From positions 1 through 32,652 of the forward strand of contig DASPRM010000069.1 in the NCBI GenBank assembly GCA_035624455.1: a DNA stretch of 32,652 bases. The letters run 5' to 3'. Below the pieces are notes generated by a model, which was not told the DNA's origin, did no database searches, and saw nothing but the letters and a program-made list of their open reading frames with translations. Both the position numbers and the translations under genes were made by a program. Position 1 is the first letter of the stretch; each line of letters begins with the position of its first letter. This DNA comes from Terriglobales bacterium. GTDB taxonomy: Bacteria > Acidobacteriota > Terriglobia > Terriglobales > Acidobacteriaceae. Below, piece by piece: positions 644-27,081 of the stretch.

Positions 644-2791
644 CTACTTCTTTTCGGTCACAATCTCCGAGAAGTCAGCCATGGTGGAAAATTCGTTGAG
701 CATTGCTTGCAACAAAGCCAGCCGGTTCGCTCGCACCCTCTCGTCCTCCACCATGACCATTACTTTGTCGAAAAATTTGTCGATGACTGGCCGCAGCTGC
801 GCGATCTCCTGCAAAGCCGCTTGGTAGTTTTTTTCTTCCCCTAGTCTTCTGACCTTCTCTGCCGCTTGCGGCACTGCCGCTCCCAGAGCTTGCTCTGGCT
901 CATCGGTGAAGGCTGCCGCATCCATCGCGGGGGCAATCTTTTTTCCGGTGTCCGCGGCCTGCCGCAAAATGTTCTTCATTCTCTTGAAGGCTATCGAAAT
1001 GGACTCGAAGTCCTCCGAAGGACGAACGTGAGCCACGGCTTCTGCTCGTGCTATGGCATCTGCCACGTCGTCGGCGCCTGCCGCGAGCACGGCGTTGACT
1101 ACGTCGTAGGCATATCCGCACACCTCGCGCAGGTAGAACTCCAGACGCTCGTGGAAAAAGTCCGCCACCTCGCTGGTGTAGCCGATGGTCTTGAACTTCG
1201 GCTCAGCTTCCGAGCCCGTATAACCTTCGCGAGCATCCTTGAACAGAGCACGCAGGCTTAGGGGCAGCTTGTGTTCGGCCACTGTCTTAACGATGCCATT
1301 CGCCTGCCGCCGCAGGGCGAAGGGGTCTTTAGAGCCGCTTGGAACCAGACCAAGGGCAAACATGCCTGCAATGCTGTCGGCCTTGTCGGAAATGGACAGT
1401 ACCGCTCCCTCCAGTGTTCTCGGGACCCCATCTTCCATCGACTCCGGCCTGTACTGATCGTAGATCGCATCCGCGATGGCAAATCGCGTGGCTTCCGGAA
1501 GCGCTGGATCCAGCTGCTGCACGCGAGCATAAAGTCCGCCGACAATTCCTTGCAGCTCAGTGAACTCCTTCACCAGTTCAGTCGTCAAATCGGTCTTAGC
1601 CAGCAGCGTGGCTTTGTGAACCACTCCCGGCCGGACCTGGATTTCCGCACTCCGCAAAGCTTCCGATACCAGGCTCGCCAGCCGTTGCACCCGTCGTGTT
1701 TTGTCGTAGTAACTGCCCAGGTCTTTCTGAAAAGTAACCTTCTTCAGCAGGGGAATCCGCTCGCGCAAGGGCACCTTCTGATCGATATCCCAGAAAAAAC
1801 GCGCGTCGTTGAAGCGCGCTCGCAGCACGCGCTCGTTGCCATGCCGGATCAAGCCCTCCGGATCACGATCCGTATTCAACACAGCCAGGAAGTGCGGCGC
1901 CAGCTTGCCCTGGTCATCCTCGACCGCGAAGTATTTCTGATGGTCGCGCATCACCGTCACCAGCACCTCTTCCGGCAACGACAAGAACTGAGGATCGAAG
2001 CTGCCCAGAATGGCGGACGGAAACTCGGTCAGATTCACGACCGTGTTAAGCAGTTCCTTGTCTTCGCGCCAGCGCGCGCCGGGCAGCGCTCGGGTTGCCG
2101 CGTCCAACGCCTTGCGAACCCGCTGTTCGCGCTCTGCCGGGTTGGCGATTACACCCGCTTGCTCGAGCTTGCCCGCATATTCCGCGGGCGAGGCGAAGCT
2201 GACTTTGGAGGAGCTCAGAAAGCGGTGTCCCTGCGAACTCACACCGGCACGGATCCCCGCAAATTCCAGCGGGATCGCCTCCCCGTCCAGCATTGCCACC
2301 AGCCATCGAATCGGGCGAACAAAGCGGAGATTGGTGTCCCCGGGACGCCAATACATGTTCTTGGGCCAATAGAGACCGGCAATTTCTTTCGGCAGCAGCT
2401 CGGCCAGAACCTCGGCCGCGGGCCGGCCTTTCTTCACTACGCGGGCGGCCAGATACTCGCCCTTCGGAGTCGTTATCTTTTCCAATTGAGCAAGATCGAC
2501 CCCAACTTTCCTGGAAAAAGCCTGTGCCGCGGGAGTGGGCTCGCCATCCTTGAATGCCACCTTATAGGAAGGGCCGGGAACCTGCTCCTCGAGATCAGGC
2601 TGCGACCCCGAGATGCTCCGAGCCAAGACAGAAATTCGTCTGGGTGTCGAGAACGGTTCCAGCACCGGATCGGCTGCTAACCGCTCCCGCACGAGCACAT
2701 CCGAGACTCGTCGCTTCAGCTCCTCCCGCGCAGCGTCAATCATGCGGGCCGGGATTTCTTCGCAACCGATCTCTAACAGGAAGTCTGGCAT
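644..2791 (-). CDS. glyS: Glycine--tRNA ligase, beta subunit
   Basis: This is the beta chain of the bacterial alpha2beta2 glycyl-tRNA synthetase, which recognises tRNA-Gly for charging in the cytoplasm. The N-terminus MPDFLLEIGCEEIPARMI is the hallmark of GlyS. VRPIRWLVAML and HRFLSS follow near residues 160-190, then DHQKYF near residue 285 and ARFNDARFFWDIDQK near residue 330. The middle carries an HD-like region, and the C-terminal part is the anticodon-binding-like domain ending in MADFSEIVTEKK. From the ATG the protein is 715 residues, close to the usual 690-720. A TTG five codons upstream (2804-2806) keeps the frame open, but family starts match the ATG, so the ATG was chosen. It follows glyQ after about 70 bp on the same strand, the standard glyQS order, so the two are probably cotranscribed. 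Confidence 0.96.
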   Translation of the reverse strand: MPDFLLEIGCEEIPARMIDAAREELKRRVSDVLVRERLAADPVLEPFSTPRRISVLARSISGSQPDLEEQVPGPSYKVAFKDGEPTPAAQAFSRKVGVDLAQLEKITTPKGEYLAARVVKKGRPAAEVLAELLPKEIAGLYWPKNMYWRPGDTNLRFVRPIRWLVAMLDGEAIPLEFAGIRAGVSSQGHRFLSSSKVSFASPAEYAGKLEQAGVIANPAEREQRVRKALDAATRALPGARWREDKELLNTVVNLTEFPSAILGSFDPQFLSLPEEVLVTVMRDHQKYFAVEDDQGKLAPHFLAVLNTDRDPEGLIRHGNERVLRARFNDARFFWDIDQKVPLRERIPLLKKVTFQKDLGSYYDKTRRVQRLASLVSEALRSAEIQVRPGVVHKATLLAKTDLTTELVKEFTELQGIVGGLYARVQQLDPALPEATRFAIADAIYDQYRPESMEDGVPRTLEGAVLSISDKADSIAGMFALGLVPSGSKDPFALRRQANGIVKTVAEHKLPLSLRALFKDAREGYTGSEAEPKFKTIGYTSEVADFFHERLEFYLREVCGYAYDVVNAVLAAGADDVADAIARAEAVAHVRPSEDFESISIAFKRMKNILRQAADTGKKIAPAMDAAAFTDEPEQALGAAVPQAAEKVRRLGEEKNYQAALQEIAQLRPVIDKFFDKVMVMVEDERVRANRLALLQAMLNEFSTMADFSEIVTEKK

Positions 2792-2864
2792 CGGATAATC
2801 AAACAAAAAATTCTAGTGGAAACTCTGTCCCACCCATTGTGAGCAACGTCACAGCTGACGGGCC

Positions 2865-3839
2865 TCAATCCGCAATCTTGGCGACTTCCACGGCGGTTGG
2901 AGCTTCCGCATGCTGCTGCGCCACCCATGCCTTGGCAACTCCCACCGCCAACTGACGAATGCGTGCGATCACTCCCACGCGCTCGGTCACGGAAATGGCA
3001 CCCCGCGCGTCCAGGATGTTGAACAAGTGCGAGCATTTCAGGCAAAGATCGAAGGCCCCCAGCAACGGAAAACGCCTCCTGGCCACGCTATTGCAGCTCG
3101 CTGCCACATCGTTCCACTGGTCGAGCAAGTCCTTGCACTCGCTCTCATAGAGCTCCAGATGTCTCCACGCCCTCTCGACATCCGCCATTTCAAAGTTGTA
3201 AACCGACATTTGCAGTTCGTCCGCCAGCCGCACATCGCCATACGTGCGCTCCTCTCCCGTGCGGGGGTCGCGCGCCCAGACGATGTCGTAGATACTGTCG
3301 ACGTCCTGCAGAAAGGCCGCAATTCGCTCCAGGCCATAGGTCAGCTCGGCCGAGATCGGATCCAGGTCCATGCCGCCGCACTGCTGGAAATACGTGAATT
3401 GCGTGATCTCCAGGCCGTCCAGCATTACTTGCCAGCCAATGCCCCACGCGCCCAAGGTCGGCGATTCCCAGTTGTCTTCTTCAAACTTGATGTCGTGCTT
3501 GCGCAGGTCGATGCCGATCGCACGCAACGATTCAAGAAAGACGTCCTGAACATCTTCCGGCGGGGGCTTGAGAATCACCTGCAGTTGAGTGTGCTTGTAA
3601 AGCCGGTTGGGGTTTTCGCCGTAGCGCCCGTCTGCTGGACGCCGGGAGGGCTGAATGTACGCCACGTTGTACGCCTGCGGACCAAGTACCCGCAGGAAGG
3701 TTTCCGGCGCCATCGTACCCGCGCCCACCTCCAGGTCATAGGGCTGCTGCAGCACGCATCCTCGCTCCGCCCAGAAACCCTGCAGCCGGAGAATCAGCTC
3801 TTGGTATGTGGGTGCCGTGTTGGCGGTCGTCTGTGACAT
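2865..3839 (-). CDS. glyQ: Glycine--tRNA ligase, alpha subunit
   Basis: GlyQ is the catalytic alpha chain of tetrameric glycyl-tRNA synthetase; it activates glycine with ATP. Family signatures are clear: [22 protein letters not shown] near residue 22, [34 protein letters not shown] at 52-86, [18 protein letters not shown]-type sequence around 120-137, and the glycine-pocket stretch FTYFQQCGG near residue 147. At 324 residues it is slightly longer than the usual 290-310, mainly at the C-terminus, which ends in an Ala-rich tail. The ATG at 3837-3839 is preceded by no strong Shine-Dalgarno sequence. It is followed by glyS on the same strand. No T-box-like leader was found in the 158-bp gap upstream, which holds a dispersed hairpin repeat. 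Confidence 0.96.
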
Positions 3840-13211: not shown

Positions 13212-13553
13212 TCAGCTAATCAGCAAAATCCGCGCTAAGCGCTTGCGAACCGTTTCCGTAATCGCTGCCTGCGCTTTACCTGCCAAGCGCGCCCGACGGA
13301 CTCGCCAATCCAAACTCTTAATGTGATCCGCCAGCACCACTCCTTTGATCTTCCCGGATTCGACGGCAACTTCGAACGGATACTTCTTGACCCTGCTGGT
13401 GATGGGACAGATTAGCGCCAGGCCGATTGTGCGGTTGTATTGCGATGGGCTCATGACTAATGCTGGGCGTCGTCCAGACTGCTCGTGGCCAACAGGAGGA
13501 TCGTCGAAATCGATCCACACGATGTCGCCGTATTCCGGCACATACGCCGTCAC
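13212..13553 (-). CDS. mazF: MazF/PemK-family toxin (mRNA interferase)
   Basis: A 113-residue endoribonuclease toxin that cleaves mRNA at short motifs and slows growth when unopposed. The beta-barrel start YGDIVWIDFDDPPVGHEQSGRRPALVMSP is typical. E24, R29 and T52 (CPITSRVKKYPFEV) sit where active-site and nearby conserved residues of MazF toxins lie. VLADHIKSLDWRVRRARLAGKA is the conserved later strand. The start overlaps the antitoxin stop by four bases (13550-13553), the normal mazEF coupling. It faces the phyH gene convergently with a 21-bp gap. The recognition sequence of the nuclease cannot be derived from this. Confidence 0.93.
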   Translation of the reverse strand: MTAYVPEYGDIVWIDFDDPPVGHEQSGRRPALVMSPSQYNRTIGLALICPITSRVKKYPFEVAVESGKIKGVVLADHIKSLDWRVRRARLAGKAQAAITETVRKRLARILLIS

Positions 13554-22567: not shown

Positions 22568-23407
22568 ATGAAGGCTTCCAGACTGCTGGCCTTGATTTGC
22601 CTGGCCAGCTCCTGCTTCTTCCTTGCACTGGCGACTGCGGCTCAAAACGCCGCTTCCCATGCACACCAGCAAACTCAATCTGCCAAGGCCGAGACGCCGG
22701 AGCCGCCGGATTTCGACGTCCAGGGTATCGGCTGGACCGAGTGCGCCTGCACCAAGTATGCCTGTCCCTGCCGGTCCAATGGTCATCCCGACACCAAGGA
22801 ACATTCCTGTGATGCCGCCGACTTCGCCTACATCCAGAAGGGACACTGGGGCAATCAGAAACTGGATGGCCTAAAGGTGATCATCATCGGCGACCTGATC
22901 GATAGCTCGCCAGAGCGGGCGTACGCGAACGTTTATTTCGACAACAAGACCACACCACAACAACGCAAGGCCTTCATGGACATGTTCGGCTACATGTTCT
23001 CCAACTGGGGCGGCTCAAGCAACGCCGTGAAAAGTGTCAAGGTAGTGCCTCTGCGCTTCACCGAATCCACCGACAAACAGACCTACACCCTGACCATTCC
23101 TGGGATCCTGCAGGAAAAGGCGTTCCTCAAGCGCGATGCGCAGGGCAACCCCGTGCACACATTGCCGGCAATGGACCAGTGGGGCAATGAGATTCATTAC
23201 GCCGACAACCTGGTCCTCAAGTATCACGATAAGGATTTGAAGCGGGAGTTTGACCACTCCGGTCGTCAGGCCAACTTCAAGTTCTTCCACACCACCCGGG
23301 AGATGTACGTAAACAAAGAACTGCTGATCCAACACGGCGACATGTCCGGAAGTTGGACCGACAAGCAGAAAGAAATCATCTCCAAGGCCAATATGAAGGT
23401 TGAGTAA
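22568..23407 (+). CDS. Secreted DUF1326-like protein
   Basis: An exported protein of 279 residues. The signal peptide is MKASRLLALICLASSCFFLALATAAQ. The mature start has a Cys-dense motif WTECACTKYACPCRSNGHPD (about 56-75), close to the CxCxxxCPC seen in DUF1326 proteins, where it may bind metal. VIIIGDLIDSSPERAYANVYFDNKTTPQQRKAFMDMF and the C-terminal FFHTTREMYVNKELLIQHGDMSGSWTDKQKE follow. Function unknown. GAGGAG precedes the ATG at 22568. Downstream is a long hairpin shared with the end of lon. Confidence 0.72.
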   Translation: MKASRLLALICLASSCFFLALATAAQNAASHAHQQTQSAKAETPEPPDFDVQGIGWTECACTKYACPCRSNGHPDTKEHSCDAADFAYIQKGHWGNQKLDGLKVIIIGDLIDSSPERAYANVYFDNKTTPQQRKAFMDMFGYMFSNWGGSSNAVKSVKVVPLRFTESTDKQTYTLTIPGILQEKAFLKRDAQGNPVHTLPAMDQWGNEIHYADNLVLKYHDKDLKREFDHSGRQANFKFFHTTREMYVNKELLIQHGDMSGSWTDKQKEIISKANMKVE

Positions 23408-23547: not shown

Positions 23548-26004
23548 TTACGCTGCCGGCACTCCCGCGCCGCTCAGCACCTGCTCGCGCTCTTCGGCGT
23601 CCTTGCGGACTTCGTCTGGCGATGACGGCAGTGCCAGGTTCAGCACCTCATCGATCGTCGAGACGTAGTGCACGTTAACGCCTTCCAGTTGCTCTGGCGA
23701 CAAATCCTCTTCCACGTTCATCTTGTTTTCTGCCGGGAAGATGATGTCGTGCACGCCGGCACGCTTTGCCGCCAGGAACTTCTCCTTCACTCCGCCGATC
23801 GGAAGCACATTCCCGCTGAGGGTGATTTCTCCCGTCATGGCGGTCAACGGCCGAGTCTGCCTGCCGGTCAAGAGCGAAACCAGAGCCGTCACGATCGTCA
23901 CCCCAGCCGACGGACCATCTTTGGGAATCGCACCCGCAGGAACATGGATATGGATATCGTGATTAGCGAAGAATTCCTCATCGATCCCCAGCTTGCCGGC
24001 GTTGGAACGCACCCAGCTTAGCGCTGCCTGCATGGACTCGCGCATCACATCCTGAATCTGACCTGTAATGCTCAGTCCGCCCTTGCCTTTCATCGCAGTG
24101 GCTTCGACAAAAAGGATGTCTCCGCCCGAGGGCGTCCAGGCAAGTCCCACCACCACGCCGGGGCGCTTGGTGCGCTCGGCAATTTCAGTGTCCACGCGGA
24201 TCTTGATTCCACCCAGAAATTCGCGAGTCTGGATGATGTCGGGCGTGACTACCAGCTTTTCGTGCCGGCCTTCAGCCTGACGCCGCACCCGCTTGCGGCA
24301 GATCGTTCCAATCAGCCGTTCCAGATTGCGCACACCCGCTTCCCGCGTGTAGTGCCGGATAATGAAGCGGATCGACTCCTCGGGAAACTCGATCTGGTCC
24401 TTTTCCAGCCCGTTTTCGTCGATCTGCCGCGGGATCAGATAGCGGTTCGCGATGTGAACCTTCTCGTCCTCCGTGTAGCCCTGCAGCTCGATGATCTCCA
24501 TACGATCGCGCAGCGGCTCGGAAATCGTGTCGAGCATGTTGGCGGTCGTAATGAACAGCACCTTGGAGAGATCGAACGGCACATCCAGGTAGTTGTCCCG
24601 GAAGGTTGAGTTCTGCTCGGGATCGAGCGCTTCCAGCAGCGCGGAACCAGGATCGCCGCGGAAATCGCGTCCCACCTTGTCGATTTCGTCCAGCATGAAC
24701 ACCGGATCGTTGGTTTCCGCCCGCCGGATGCCCTGAATGATTTGTCCTGGTAGCGCTCCAATATAGGTGCGGCGATGCCCGCGGATTTCCGCTTCGTCGT
24801 GTACGCCGCCCAGCGAGATGCGCACAAACTTGCGTCCCAGGGAACGCGCGATGGACTTACCCAGAGAAGTCTTACCTACCCCAGGAGGCCCCACGAAGCA
24901 CAGGATTGGACCCTTCATCGCCGGTTTGTTGCGGCGGACCGACAAGTAATCAAGGATGCGATCCTTCACCTTCTGCAGGTCATAGTGGTCTTCATCCAGG
25001 ATGGTCTTCGCCTTGAGAATATCCACTTCTACGCCTGAAGACTTGCTCCAGGGCAAGACCGCCAGCCATTCAATGTAATTGCGGGTAAGCCCGTAGTCGG
25101 CTGCCATAGGGGACATGCGAGCCAGCCGGCCAAGCTCTTTCATAGCCTCTTTCTTGACCTCTTCCGGCATGCCCGCTTGCTCGATCTTTTGCCGCAGCTC
25201 CTCGGTGTCCTTGGTAGTCTCGTCAACCTCACCCAGTTCCTTCTGGATGGCTTTCATCTGTTCGCGCAGATAAAACTCACGCTGCGTCTGTTGCACCCGA
25301 TCCTGAACTTCAGACTGGATCTTGTTGCGCAGTTGCTGAACCTCCAGCTCTTTCACCAGGTGCTGATTAATCTTGTCCAGCCGGGCACGAACGTCCGCAG
25401 TCTCCAGAACCTCCTGTTTGTCACGGCTGGAAAGCGTTGGCAGTGAGGATGCGATGAAATCCACCAGCCGCCCCGGCTCTTCTATATTCATCGCCACCGT
25501 GGCCAGCTCATCTGACAGGGTCGGGGAGCCGGCGACAATCTGCTGGAACAGGGTTAGCACGTTACGCTGCAGCGCCTCCAGCTCGGCGCTCTTGGAGGGA
25601 GCGATCTCCCCAATCGCACTGGTCACCGCCGTCATGAAGGGTGCCAACTGCGTGTATTCGGTGATGTGAACCCGCTCCAGACCTTCCGCAAAAACGAAAA
25701 GGCTCTGATTCGGCATCTTTACGACCTTATGAACGATTGCAAGCGTTCCGATGGTGTAGAGGTCCACTGGCTGCGGGCTATCCACCCGCGCCTCCCTCTG
25801 CGCCACGACGATGATGGTCTTGTCTTCTCCCAGAGAATTAATCAGTTGAACCGAGCTCTCACGCCCCACGGTGAGTGGCAAAACCGCGTGCGGGAACAAT
25901 ACCGTGTCCCTGACCGGCAGCACCGGCAGGCTTCGATGCGCCTGCCCTTCCGGTTCTTTAGGAGCTGGTTCTTTGCGCTCTAAGTTGCGCGATGGATTGG
26001 CCAT
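23548..26004 (-). CDS. lon: ATP-dependent protease Lon
   Basis: Lon degrades misfolded and regulatory proteins in the cytoplasm. It is 818 residues. The N-terminal LON substrate domain begins SLPVLPVRDTVLFPHAVLPLTVGRESSV (25-52). A coiled region VQQTQREFYLREQMKAIQKELGEVDE follows near 237-262. The AAA+ core has Walker A GPPGVGKT (372-379), Walker B VFMLDEID (435-442) and SEPLRDRMEIIEL. The peptidase has S699 (PKDGPSAGVT) and K742 (GGVKEKFLAAKRAG), the catalytic dyad. Right upstream (26013-26033) is a HAIR-like inverted repeat, pointing to HspR control in heat shock. The start ATG at 26002-26004 is preceded by AAGGGAG. It is transcribed divergently from the Cys-rich secreted gene. Confidence 0.97.
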   Translation of the reverse strand: MANPSRNLERKEPAPKEPEGQAHRSLPVLPVRDTVLFPHAVLPLTVGRESSVQLINSLGEDKTIIVVAQREARVDSPQPVDLYTIGTLAIVHKVVKMPNQSLFVFAEGLERVHITEYTQLAPFMTAVTSAIGEIAPSKSAELEALQRNVLTLFQQIVAGSPTLSDELATVAMNIEEPGRLVDFIASSLPTLSSRDKQEVLETADVRARLDKINQHLVKELEVQQLRNKIQSEVQDRVQQTQREFYLREQMKAIQKELGEVDETTKDTEELRQKIEQAGMPEEVKKEAMKELGRLARMSPMAADYGLTRNYIEWLAVLPWSKSSGVEVDILKAKTILDEDHYDLQKVKDRILDYLSVRRNKPAMKGPILCFVGPPGVGKTSLGKSIARSLGRKFVRISLGGVHDEAEIRGHRRTYIGALPGQIIQGIRRAETNDPVFMLDEIDKVGRDFRGDPGSALLEALDPEQNSTFRDNYLDVPFDLSKVLFITTANMLDTISEPLRDRMEIIELQGYTEDEKVHIANRYLIPRQIDENGLEKDQIEFPEESIRFIIRHYTREAGVRNLERLIGTICRKRVRRQAEGRHEKLVVTPDIIQTREFLGGIKIRVDTEIAERTKRPGVVVGLAWTPSGGDILFVEATAMKGKGGLSITGQIQDVMRESMQAALSWVRSNAGKLGIDEEFFANHDIHIHVPAGAIPKDGPSAGVTIVTALVSLLTGRQTRPLTAMTGEITLSGNVLPIGGVKEKFLAAKRAGVHDIIFPAENKMNVEEDLSPEQLEGVNVHYVSTIDEVLNLALPSSPDEVRKDAEEREQVLSGAGVPAA

Positions 26005-26012
26005 AAAGCTCC

Positions 26013-26033
26013 CTTGAGTGAACTATACTCAAC
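26013..26033 (-). promoter_or_regulatory. HAIR-like operator (HspR site) of lon
   Basis: CTTGAGT (26013-26019), seven bases, then ACTCAAC (26027-26033). It matches the HspR-associated inverted repeat CTTGAGT-N7-ACTCAAG except for the last base. On the minus strand a -10-like TATAGT (26022-26027) lies inside it, and the right arm borders the AAGGGAG ribosome site of lon, eight bases before the start. Confidence 0.7.
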
Positions 26034-26466
26034 TTTTGATGACCCTCACGGCACAAAAGATGCACTCCGCAATCTCCCCACTTCTCTTCGTGGCCGAGGG
26101 ATTGTAAATCGGGGTGTGCCCCTCCGCAATGTGCCTGTCCCAACCAAAAGTGAAACTCATTCCGTAATTGCACCCGGAAAGAAAACAGGCCCATTGAGAT
26201 GACGACCTCCCTAGAGGCGGCAGCATAACAGCGAAGTTCAATCCTGGGCTGCTCCCAATTGCATTCATCTATCCCGATTGACTGCCATGGTCCCAGCAGA
26301 GCGTCCTGATTAGCCGGTGGGGCTAATTCATTGTGGCTAGCTTAGGCGGGCTAGCGCATTCTGCCTAACTCCTTCGCAGACTAGCTCCGCAGAAAATCCG
26401 GGTATAGCCTCCCGCCCAATTAGCTTTCCTTAAGCATGGCCGGAAAGCAATCAGGAGGTTCCCCGA
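26034..26466. other. Divergent intergenic region lon / Cys-rich secreted gene
   Basis: This 433-bp stretch has no gene. It holds the edge of the lon promoter region on the left. The right half has a 7-bp stem ATTAGCC / GGCTAAT (26309-26327) and interlocked stems at 26336-26368 before the next gene. The AGGAGG ribosome site of that gene is near 26454. Confidence 0.6.
26309..26368 (+). ncRNA. Structured leader or regulatory element (hairpin plus pseudoknot-like stems)
   Basis: ATTAGCC-ggtgg-GGCTAAT forms a hairpin. Next, GCTAGC (26336-26341) pairs with GCTAGC (26350-26355), while TTAGGC in its loop (26342-26347) pairs with GCCTAA (26363-26368). That is the order of an H-type pseudoknot, though the first connecting loop would have no free base. 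A known riboswitch class was not recognised. The strand is assumed to be that of the downstream gene. Confidence 0.35.
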
Positions 26467-27081
26467 ATGCGAAAAGCGTTGTACGCCTCCGTCTTGTTGC
26501 TGATAGTTCTTGCCAGCTCGTGTTTGATCTTCGCGCAGGGCATCAGTGACGTGTATCAACTCACTTACTACTCCAACCGGGAGAACGCAAAAATCATCAC
26601 GGCAGCCGTGGTGATTCCCGATCAGACTGTCCGCATCATCAACCCCGGTGAGCAAGGAACGCCGCTGGGTGCCCACCACGGCACGGTTTGTGCGGACATT
26701 TACGTGTTCGATTCCAATCAGGAGATGACCGAATGCTGCTCCTGCCCGATTACAGCAAACGGCCTGCTCATTCTCTCGGTAAACAATAACCTCACGTCCA
26801 ACCCGCTTACCGGTTTCCCGCCGCCTACTGACGGGGTGATTAAGATCGTTTCCGATAACCAGGCGAATTGCGACGCCACCAGCCCCGTGCCAACGCCGGA
26901 TTTGCGGGCGTTCGCGACTCACCTGCAAAACCCCGGGGGCAGCGTTCTGGTAACCACGGAAGAAGAATTTGCGACTGCCGATCTGCAGCAGGACGAACTC
27001 TCCTTCCTGGGTCAGGCGTGCTCCTTTGTCCAGTTCCTGGGTAGTGGTAAGGGCACCTGCACTTGCCCGAGGGACTTGTAA
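26467..27081 (+). CDS. Secreted Cys-rich protein of unknown function
   Basis: I do not recognise the family. It is a predicted exported protein, 204 residues. A signal peptide MRKALYASVLLLIVLASSCLIFAQ precedes GISDVYQLTYYS. The mature part contains several Cys that could form disulfides: GTVCADIYVF, MTECCSCPITANG, QANCDATS, GQACSFVQ and the C-terminal GTCTCPRDL. Beta-strand-like stretches suggest an immunoglobulin-like or jelly-roll domain, but this is guesswork. AGGAGG seven or eight bases before the ATG is a strong ribosome site. A clear intrinsic terminator follows 75 bp downstream, so it is a one-gene unit with a long structured leader. Confidence 0.72.
   Translation: MRKALYASVLLLIVLASSCLIFAQGISDVYQLTYYSNRENAKIITAAVVIPDQTVRIINPGEQGTPLGAHHGTVCADIYVFDSNQEMTECCSCPITANGLLILSVNNNLTSNPLTGFPPPTDGVIKIVSDNQANCDATSPVPTPDLRAFATHLQNPGGSVLVTTEEEFATADLQQDELSFLGQACSFVQFLGSGKGTCTCPRDL

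Follow-up and report, generated by a model that had tools for sequence, protein, structure and literature searches.

The window considered here, a stretch of 32,652 nucleotides from a Terriglobales bacterium, carries lon, the gene for endopeptidase La, on the minus strand (23548..26004); the encoded protein has 818 amino acids and scores 949 bits with the TIGR00763 model, for which the cut-off is 608 bits. The gene 3' of lon (22568-23404, DUF1326) is convergent and the ORF upstream of it, with its start at 26467, is divergent, so lon looks monocistronic, with a promoter of its own. Eight bases before the lon ATG (at 26004, minus strand) lies an inverted repeat that reads CTTGAGT-GAACTAT-ACTCAAC on the plus strand (26013-26033) and differs from the HAIR sequence CTTGAGT-N7-ACTCAAG only at the outermost base. 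Both the single mismatch to the consensus and the 8-base distance had been claimed in a sequence-only reading that preceded this work, and both are borne out by the window sequence. On the lon strand the region is organised as GCATC-N17-CATCAAA-A-GTTGAGT-ATAGTTC-ACTCAAG-GGAG-CTTT-ATG. The predicted HspR operator, GTTGAGT-ATAGTTC-ACTCAAG (26013..26033, minus strand), comprises a left half-site GTTGAGT (26027..26033) and a right half-site ACTCAAG (26013..26019), the last bases of which run into a Shine-Dalgarno-like AAGGGAG (26009..26015) that overlaps the operator edge. The minimal HspR operator given for Streptomyces coelicolor in PMC2687793, TTGAGY-N7-ACTCAA, is contained in the window site without mismatch.

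By simple arithmetic, about 0.005 sites with at most one mismatch are expected in the window and about 0.7 in the 4.4 Mb genome, in which exactly one is found, the reversed-pattern control also giving one. When up to three mismatches are allowed, the window has 2 sites against a shuffle mean of 1.02, a number that is reached by 30 of 100 shuffles, and in the genome 124 sites compare with 222 in the reversed control, without bulk enrichment of HAIR-like sequence. The single site with at most one mismatch could thus be due to chance in a genome of 4.4 Mb, and the case rests on its place and its conservation. Several look-alikes with two mismatches are explained by a dispersed terminator-like repeat of the GAGGGTGCCCCACTCAAGC...GCTTGGGTGGGGTTTT type (in this genome at loci L006, L007, L008 and L012, near 1500). 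Across the phylum, the exact 14-base repeat occurs 6 times in 396 genomes, at the chance level set by a control of 7; two of these sites belong to lon in the family of the window, one is an intergenic terminator-like hairpin (L400), two are within ORFs (L401, L402) and one falls within a 136-codon open frame (L403). Only 5 of 107 genomes carry the 14-base repeat at lon with no mismatch, and since such a strict pattern misses most lon sites, the phylum-wide count says little about how widely they are spread.

These genome-scale counts, with about as many sites seen as expected, are what favours the explanation that promoter and ribosome-site sequences happen to produce the repeat by chance, with no regulator behind it. 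They have to be weighed against the placing of the sites, as 12 of the 20 sites with at most one mismatch (control 24) in 12 genomes picked for their lon site are at lon, one per genome, while one of the 8 others lies 154 bp before groES of genome G097. Furthermore, the frequency of the operator at lon is far above that in shuffled sequence and above that in upstream controls, and the right half recurs in the spacer of the dnaK promoter, where no sigma70 contact requires it. A chance by-product is therefore extremely improbable, and on the sequence comparisons given below the position and the conservation of the lon site are not a matter of chance.

Conservation was followed in the lon upstreams of 107 genomes from 38 genera, the present one included, taken from 120 genomes of the order of which 119 have a lon match; the 13 left out comprise five whose only match is a distant lon paralogue, one that lacks lon, one in which lon is cut by the contig end and six for which sequences were not obtained. 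The exact TTGAGY-N7-ACTCAA is found at the lon start in 18 of the 107 genomes (12 genera, own genome included) and is absent from the 76,194 bases farther upstream of the same genes. With up to two mismatches the 14-base repeat is present in 19 of 107 lon upstreams (13 genera), against a mean of 0.02 and a maximum of 1 in dinucleotide shuffles and 0 of 105 in a control stretch farther upstream. A relaxed operator, TTGA[GCT][TAC]-N7-ACTCA, which was chosen post hoc and with letters that differ slightly between the lon count and each of the two dnaK counts, is present in 57 of 107 lon upstreams (23 genera, again including the genome under study), with none in shuffles and none in the 105 control stretches. 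The conservation of the inverted repeat in relatives, on which the sequence-only reading had made its case depend, is thus observed in both the exact and the relaxed form.

The operator varies among the relatives. TTGATA or TCTGATA forms the left half at lon in many genomes of the genera g4, g7, g2, g8, g9 and others, and at the TTGATA-type sites ACTCA, the right half, abuts the ATG or extends into it (e.g. L170, L209, L224). Among 80 named lon relatives, of which 14 loci were scanned, the exact operator was found in none of the 14; TTGATA-N7-ACTCA is present in five of them (L054 of Granulicella, L057 of Edaphobacter, L062 of Silvibacterium, L056 and L058), and the remaining nine have CTGATA in one case (L055) and no repeat in eight. 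In family f2 the composite of promoter and operator is found at lon in none of 10 genomes, hspR being present nevertheless, and two genomes of this family have a repeat with three to four mismatches near lon. Most genomes of the order also contain another lon match, with an identity of about 40% where this is given; no HAIR with three or fewer mismatches was found in the three upstreams of this paralogue that were checked.

A further conserved element lies just upstream of the repeat. GCATC (26059..26063, minus strand) and CATCAAA (26035..26041, minus strand) form what we take to be an ECF-sigma promoter, from its shape (a G[CA]A[AT]C -35, a spacer of 16-17 bases and a CATC or CGTC -10), and the transcription start would lie inside the left half of the HAIR. 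The arrangement G[CA]A[AT]C-N16/17-CATC, followed after 3-5 bases by the HAIR, is present at lon in all 18 genomes with the exact operator, and the same ECF-type arrangement stands before the HAIR of dnaK in 21 of 27 and in 24 of 40 genomes. A broader combined pattern, designed like the composite of CATC element and HAIR below after the alignments had been viewed, is found at lon in 65 of 97 genomes of the window's family (21 of 32 genera; absent in 32 of 97) and at dnaK in 40 of 64, with none in 20 rounds of shuffling for either gene. Over the 120 genomes, the CATC element joined to the relaxed HAIR gives 28 sites in 19 genomes and none in the reversed control; of these, 17 are at lon, 10 at dnaK and one inside a GAPDH gene, and, the composite having been built on lon and dnaK, the matches at those two genes are there by design and it is the near-absence elsewhere that is informative. 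In the genera with TTGATA at lon the two elements, judged by eye, are mostly TGCGAC or TGAAAC with CATCNAAT or TGTCTAAT and are farther from the operator; the pattern search caught 17 of 66.

The sequence-only reading had also noted a -10-like TATAGT inside the site. The hexamer is indeed there on the lon strand, but it is poorly conserved: a TATNAN shape is shared by the three nearest relatives (G097, G022, G012), which have such forms as TATAAA and TATCAT at this position, and is lost from the others, where TGTGAT, CGTAAC and further forms are found. Nor did a search of 25950-26200 yield a sigma70-type promoter, and the inner TATAGT is probably not the -10. The pattern GCAWC-N16/17-CATCNAA has 23 occurrences in this genome (control 3), mostly inside ORFs; apart from those at lon and dnaK, four outside long ORFs stand before phoH (233 bp), a trypsin/PDZ protease gene (323 bp), an aconitase gene (about 20 bp) and an AsmA-like gene (98 bp), at loci L357, L352, L359 and L347. 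These occurrences hint at a putative wider ECF stress regulon.

The overlap of the repeat with the Shine-Dalgarno sequence also allows an explanation at the RNA level, in which the repeat would act as a hairpin in the lon mRNA, an RNA thermometer hiding the ribosome site, and not as an operator in DNA. Leaders of 35 nt from the lon genes of four genomes with the HAIR type do form the stem, at -6.1 to -11.5 kcal/mol, and only 1 of 200 shuffles folds at least as well as that of G067 (z -3.70), with z of -1.83 and -1.47 in two others. The leader of the genome under study, however, folds like its shuffles (z -0.19), and in the single TTGATA-type leader that was folded the stem is not formed. Compensatory change is likewise not seen: the outer and the inner pairs are each unpaired in 9 of 21 sequences, and over these 21 selected distinct sites 83.7% of cells are paired against 83.4% in shuffles, without covariation. 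The same repeat is found about 100 bp before dnaK, within a promoter, and a start inside the operator would deprive the lon transcript of part of the left arm, which also speaks against a hairpin. With covariation not above shuffles and a leader of its own that is unremarkable, the stable G067 leader notwithstanding, the RNA-thermometer explanation was rejected as very unlikely, and the repeat is further treated here as a candidate DNA operator.

A gene for such a regulator, which the sequence-only reading presupposed, is present in the genome (G000:C22:11972-12370); its product reaches 105.6 bits against the HspR equivalog model NF047375, a margin of 0.6 bit over the cut-off of 105. The HspR proteins of 10 relatives score 99.3-105.8 bits, and four of the 10 are above the cut-off. 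A PDB search for HspR returned 25 chains, none of them named HspR. Among the 120 Terriglobales genomes 117 have a strong hspR match, two of these with an internal stop codon, and of the other three two have a weak match and one has none. G117 has only a weak hspR match, yet a perfect lon site; as neither G117 nor G100 has a close dnaK match, these two assemblies probably lack the dnaK-hspR region. In 87 of the 110 genomes in which both positions are available, hspR follows dnaK in the same orientation and at a distance of no more than 12 kb; in the genome of the window dnaK is followed by dnaJ, two other ORFs and then hspR, which lies 4.3 kb downstream of dnaK.

That another regulator of the MerR family reads the site instead of HspR might be considered, as the genome has four MerR-type matches, but only one of the three proteins that were scored, namely the one at 105.6 bits, is above the HspR cut-off, with the others at 36.5 and 26.8 bits. 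Given in addition that the half-sites are of the HspR type and that the HspR gene is linked to dnaK, recognition by another MerR-family protein is highly improbable. HspR itself is thus retained as the predicted ligand of the lon site.

A probable partner site lies at dnaK. In this genome it is a HAIR-like site with two mismatches (C22:5617-5637), 85 bp before dnaK, which does not contain the exact minimal operator. Upstreams of dnaK were examined in 70 of 119 matching genomes, made up of 30 best-match loci and 40 selected ones, and a relaxed HAIR-like site is present in the dnaK promoter of 66 of these (27 of 30, own genome included, and 39 of 40), a conservation that favours an operator at this gene. 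In relatives the site is mostly NTTGACA-N7-ACTCA, also in five of six sampled genomes of family f2. The TTGACA left half doubles there as a sigma70 -35, a TA...T hexamer following it in 20 of 27 cases, with a spacing of 17 bases in 15 of them; the ACTCA half sits in the promoter spacer and is not required there by sigma70.

Other chaperone genes gave a different picture. At clpB, where a HAIR site had also been expected, none was found: the 14-base repeat at three or fewer mismatches is present in 0 of the 26 upstreams (250 bp, own start) that could be resolved out of 30. HspR targets vary between lineages, so a clpB site is not counted as defining an HspR/HAIR regulon. Upstream of hspR no HAIR was found within 200 bp in any of 30 genomes. 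At groES, likewise named as a place to look, HAIR with at most two mismatches is present in 3 of 29 resolved upstreams (30 taken; loci L317-L346), with weaker look-alikes in several more, including the present genome (4 mismatches), but the gene is mainly marked by CIRCE, the HrcA element, which is found at two or fewer mismatches in 25 of 29. In several genera HAIR-like TGAGY-N7-ACTCA repeats stand before the groES -35, and joint control of groES by HrcA and HspR is possible. On contig C4 of G103 a second dnaK (1943-3748) is located near a second groES (13236-13547), possibly a duplicated chaperone locus. With sites at lon and dnaK, none at clpB and hspR, and CIRCE at groES, the predicted regulon among these five genes is likely to consist of lon and dnaK, HrcA acting mainly on groES.

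Taken together, the operator and the fact that it is conserved at lon, the dnaK-linked hspR gene and the HAIR-like partner site at dnaK point to the inverted repeat being, in all likelihood, the operator through which the MerR-family regulator HspR controls lon; the HspR-type control of lon proposed for this lineage by the sequence-only reading is supported by these comparisons. Counting against an HspR operator are the thin margin of the HspR score, the lack of HAIR at clpB and hspR, the two mismatches in this genome's own dnaK site, the dnaK TTGACA that doubles as a -35 in relatives, the absence of bulk enrichment of HAIR-like sites in the genome, and the lon composite that is absent from 32 of 97 genomes of the window's family and from 10 of 10 in family f2.

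In Streptomyces, HspR acts with DnaK as co-repressor, and work by Bucca and co-workers from 2003 reportedly concerns the part of DnaK in this loop. Here lon would be transcribed from the ECF-type promoter GCATC-N17-CATCAAA with its start inside the operator, and HspR, probably with DnaK as co-repressor, would sit on the +1 position and stop initiation. Upon heat or protein misfolding DnaK would be drawn off and HspR released, and Lon would rise together with DnaK and DnaJ. More tentatively, and as a model to which we give somewhat less than half our confidence, Terriglobales may possess a two-key heat-shock module, in which production of Lon and DnaK would require both an active, dedicated ECF sigma factor and the departure of HspR. 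The HspR-dnaK pair would be the old state of the order and lon would have been captured later, in one family, with its operator fitted between the ECF -10 and the ribosome site, followed in several genera by a drift of the operator towards the form TTGATA-N7-ACTCA, adjoining the start codon.

Few bacteria are commoner in soil than the Acidobacteriota, whose heat-shock control has, to our knowledge, hardly been studied. No report of HspR control in Acidobacteria/Acidobacteriota was found in the open-access literature covered, a scope outside which most subscription papers fall. In a Granulicella transcriptome, dnaK and lon2 were lowered under high sugar, and the account in PMC7074687, as far as drawn on here, gives no regulator. 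HspR control of lon, and HspR together with an alternative sigma factor, are already known from other bacteria; what seems to be new is the phylum, for which a concrete putative regulon of lon and dnaK, HrcA being the main regulator of groES, and its promoter type can now be named. From the sequence evidence assembled here, it is very probable that HspR control as described in Streptomyces and Deinococcus operates in this soil acidobacterium as well.

The Streptomyces HspR/HAIR regulon is similar in its operator, in its targets dnaK and lon, the two genes predicted to be targets here, and in its MerR-type hspR, which in Streptomyces is linked to dnaK; here the likeness is drawn from sequence. 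Unlike in Streptomyces, clpB has no site here (0 of 26), the lon promoter looks ECF-type and no HAIR precedes hspR (0 of 30). The in vivo HspR targets confirmed in Streptomyces include, according to PMC2687793, dnaK, clpB and lon, and HspR/HAIR control of lon was shown by Sobczyk et al. 2002, as cited in PMC9775585.

In Helicobacter pylori, HspR and HrcA share the chaperone genes and a HAIR-like repeat is described as essential for binding (PMC6102357). The CIRCE element at 25 of 29 groES genes, some of them with HAIR-like sites too, resembles the arrangement in this species and in Campylobacter jejuni, where HspR and HrcA reportedly also share chaperone genes. In contrast to the present case, lon is not named as an HspR target of H. 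pylori in the parts of PMC6102357 drawn on here.

Sig1 of Deinococcus and SigH of mycobacteria are both ECF factors. HspR of Deinococcus radiodurans has been reported to control dnaK, dnaJ, grpE, lonB, clpB, hsp20 and ftsH (PMC2687793), and the alternative sigma factor Sig1 is described as needed for induction of groESL and dnaKJ (PMC6888292, PMC6798082). To this HspR and Sig1 system the plan proposed here would be similar in its two layers, a likeness of functional plan as that system is outlined in the sources named; it differs in that clpB lies outside the putative regulon. For mycobacteria, the dnaK-grpE-dnaJ-hspR operon is described as regulated by SigH (PMC5515531), and HspR as repressing clpB, acr2 and the hsp70/hsp40 genes (PMC7448276), so that a second sigma factor and HspR again meet on dnaK in these accounts, but, unlike here, lon is not named among the HspR targets in the portions of the two papers concerned (PMC5515531, PMC7448276). 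With Sig1 in Deinococcus and SigH in mycobacteria, the two-layer plan suggested for this acidobacterium, in which a predicted HspR operator is joined to an ECF-type promoter, has functional parallels in both groups.
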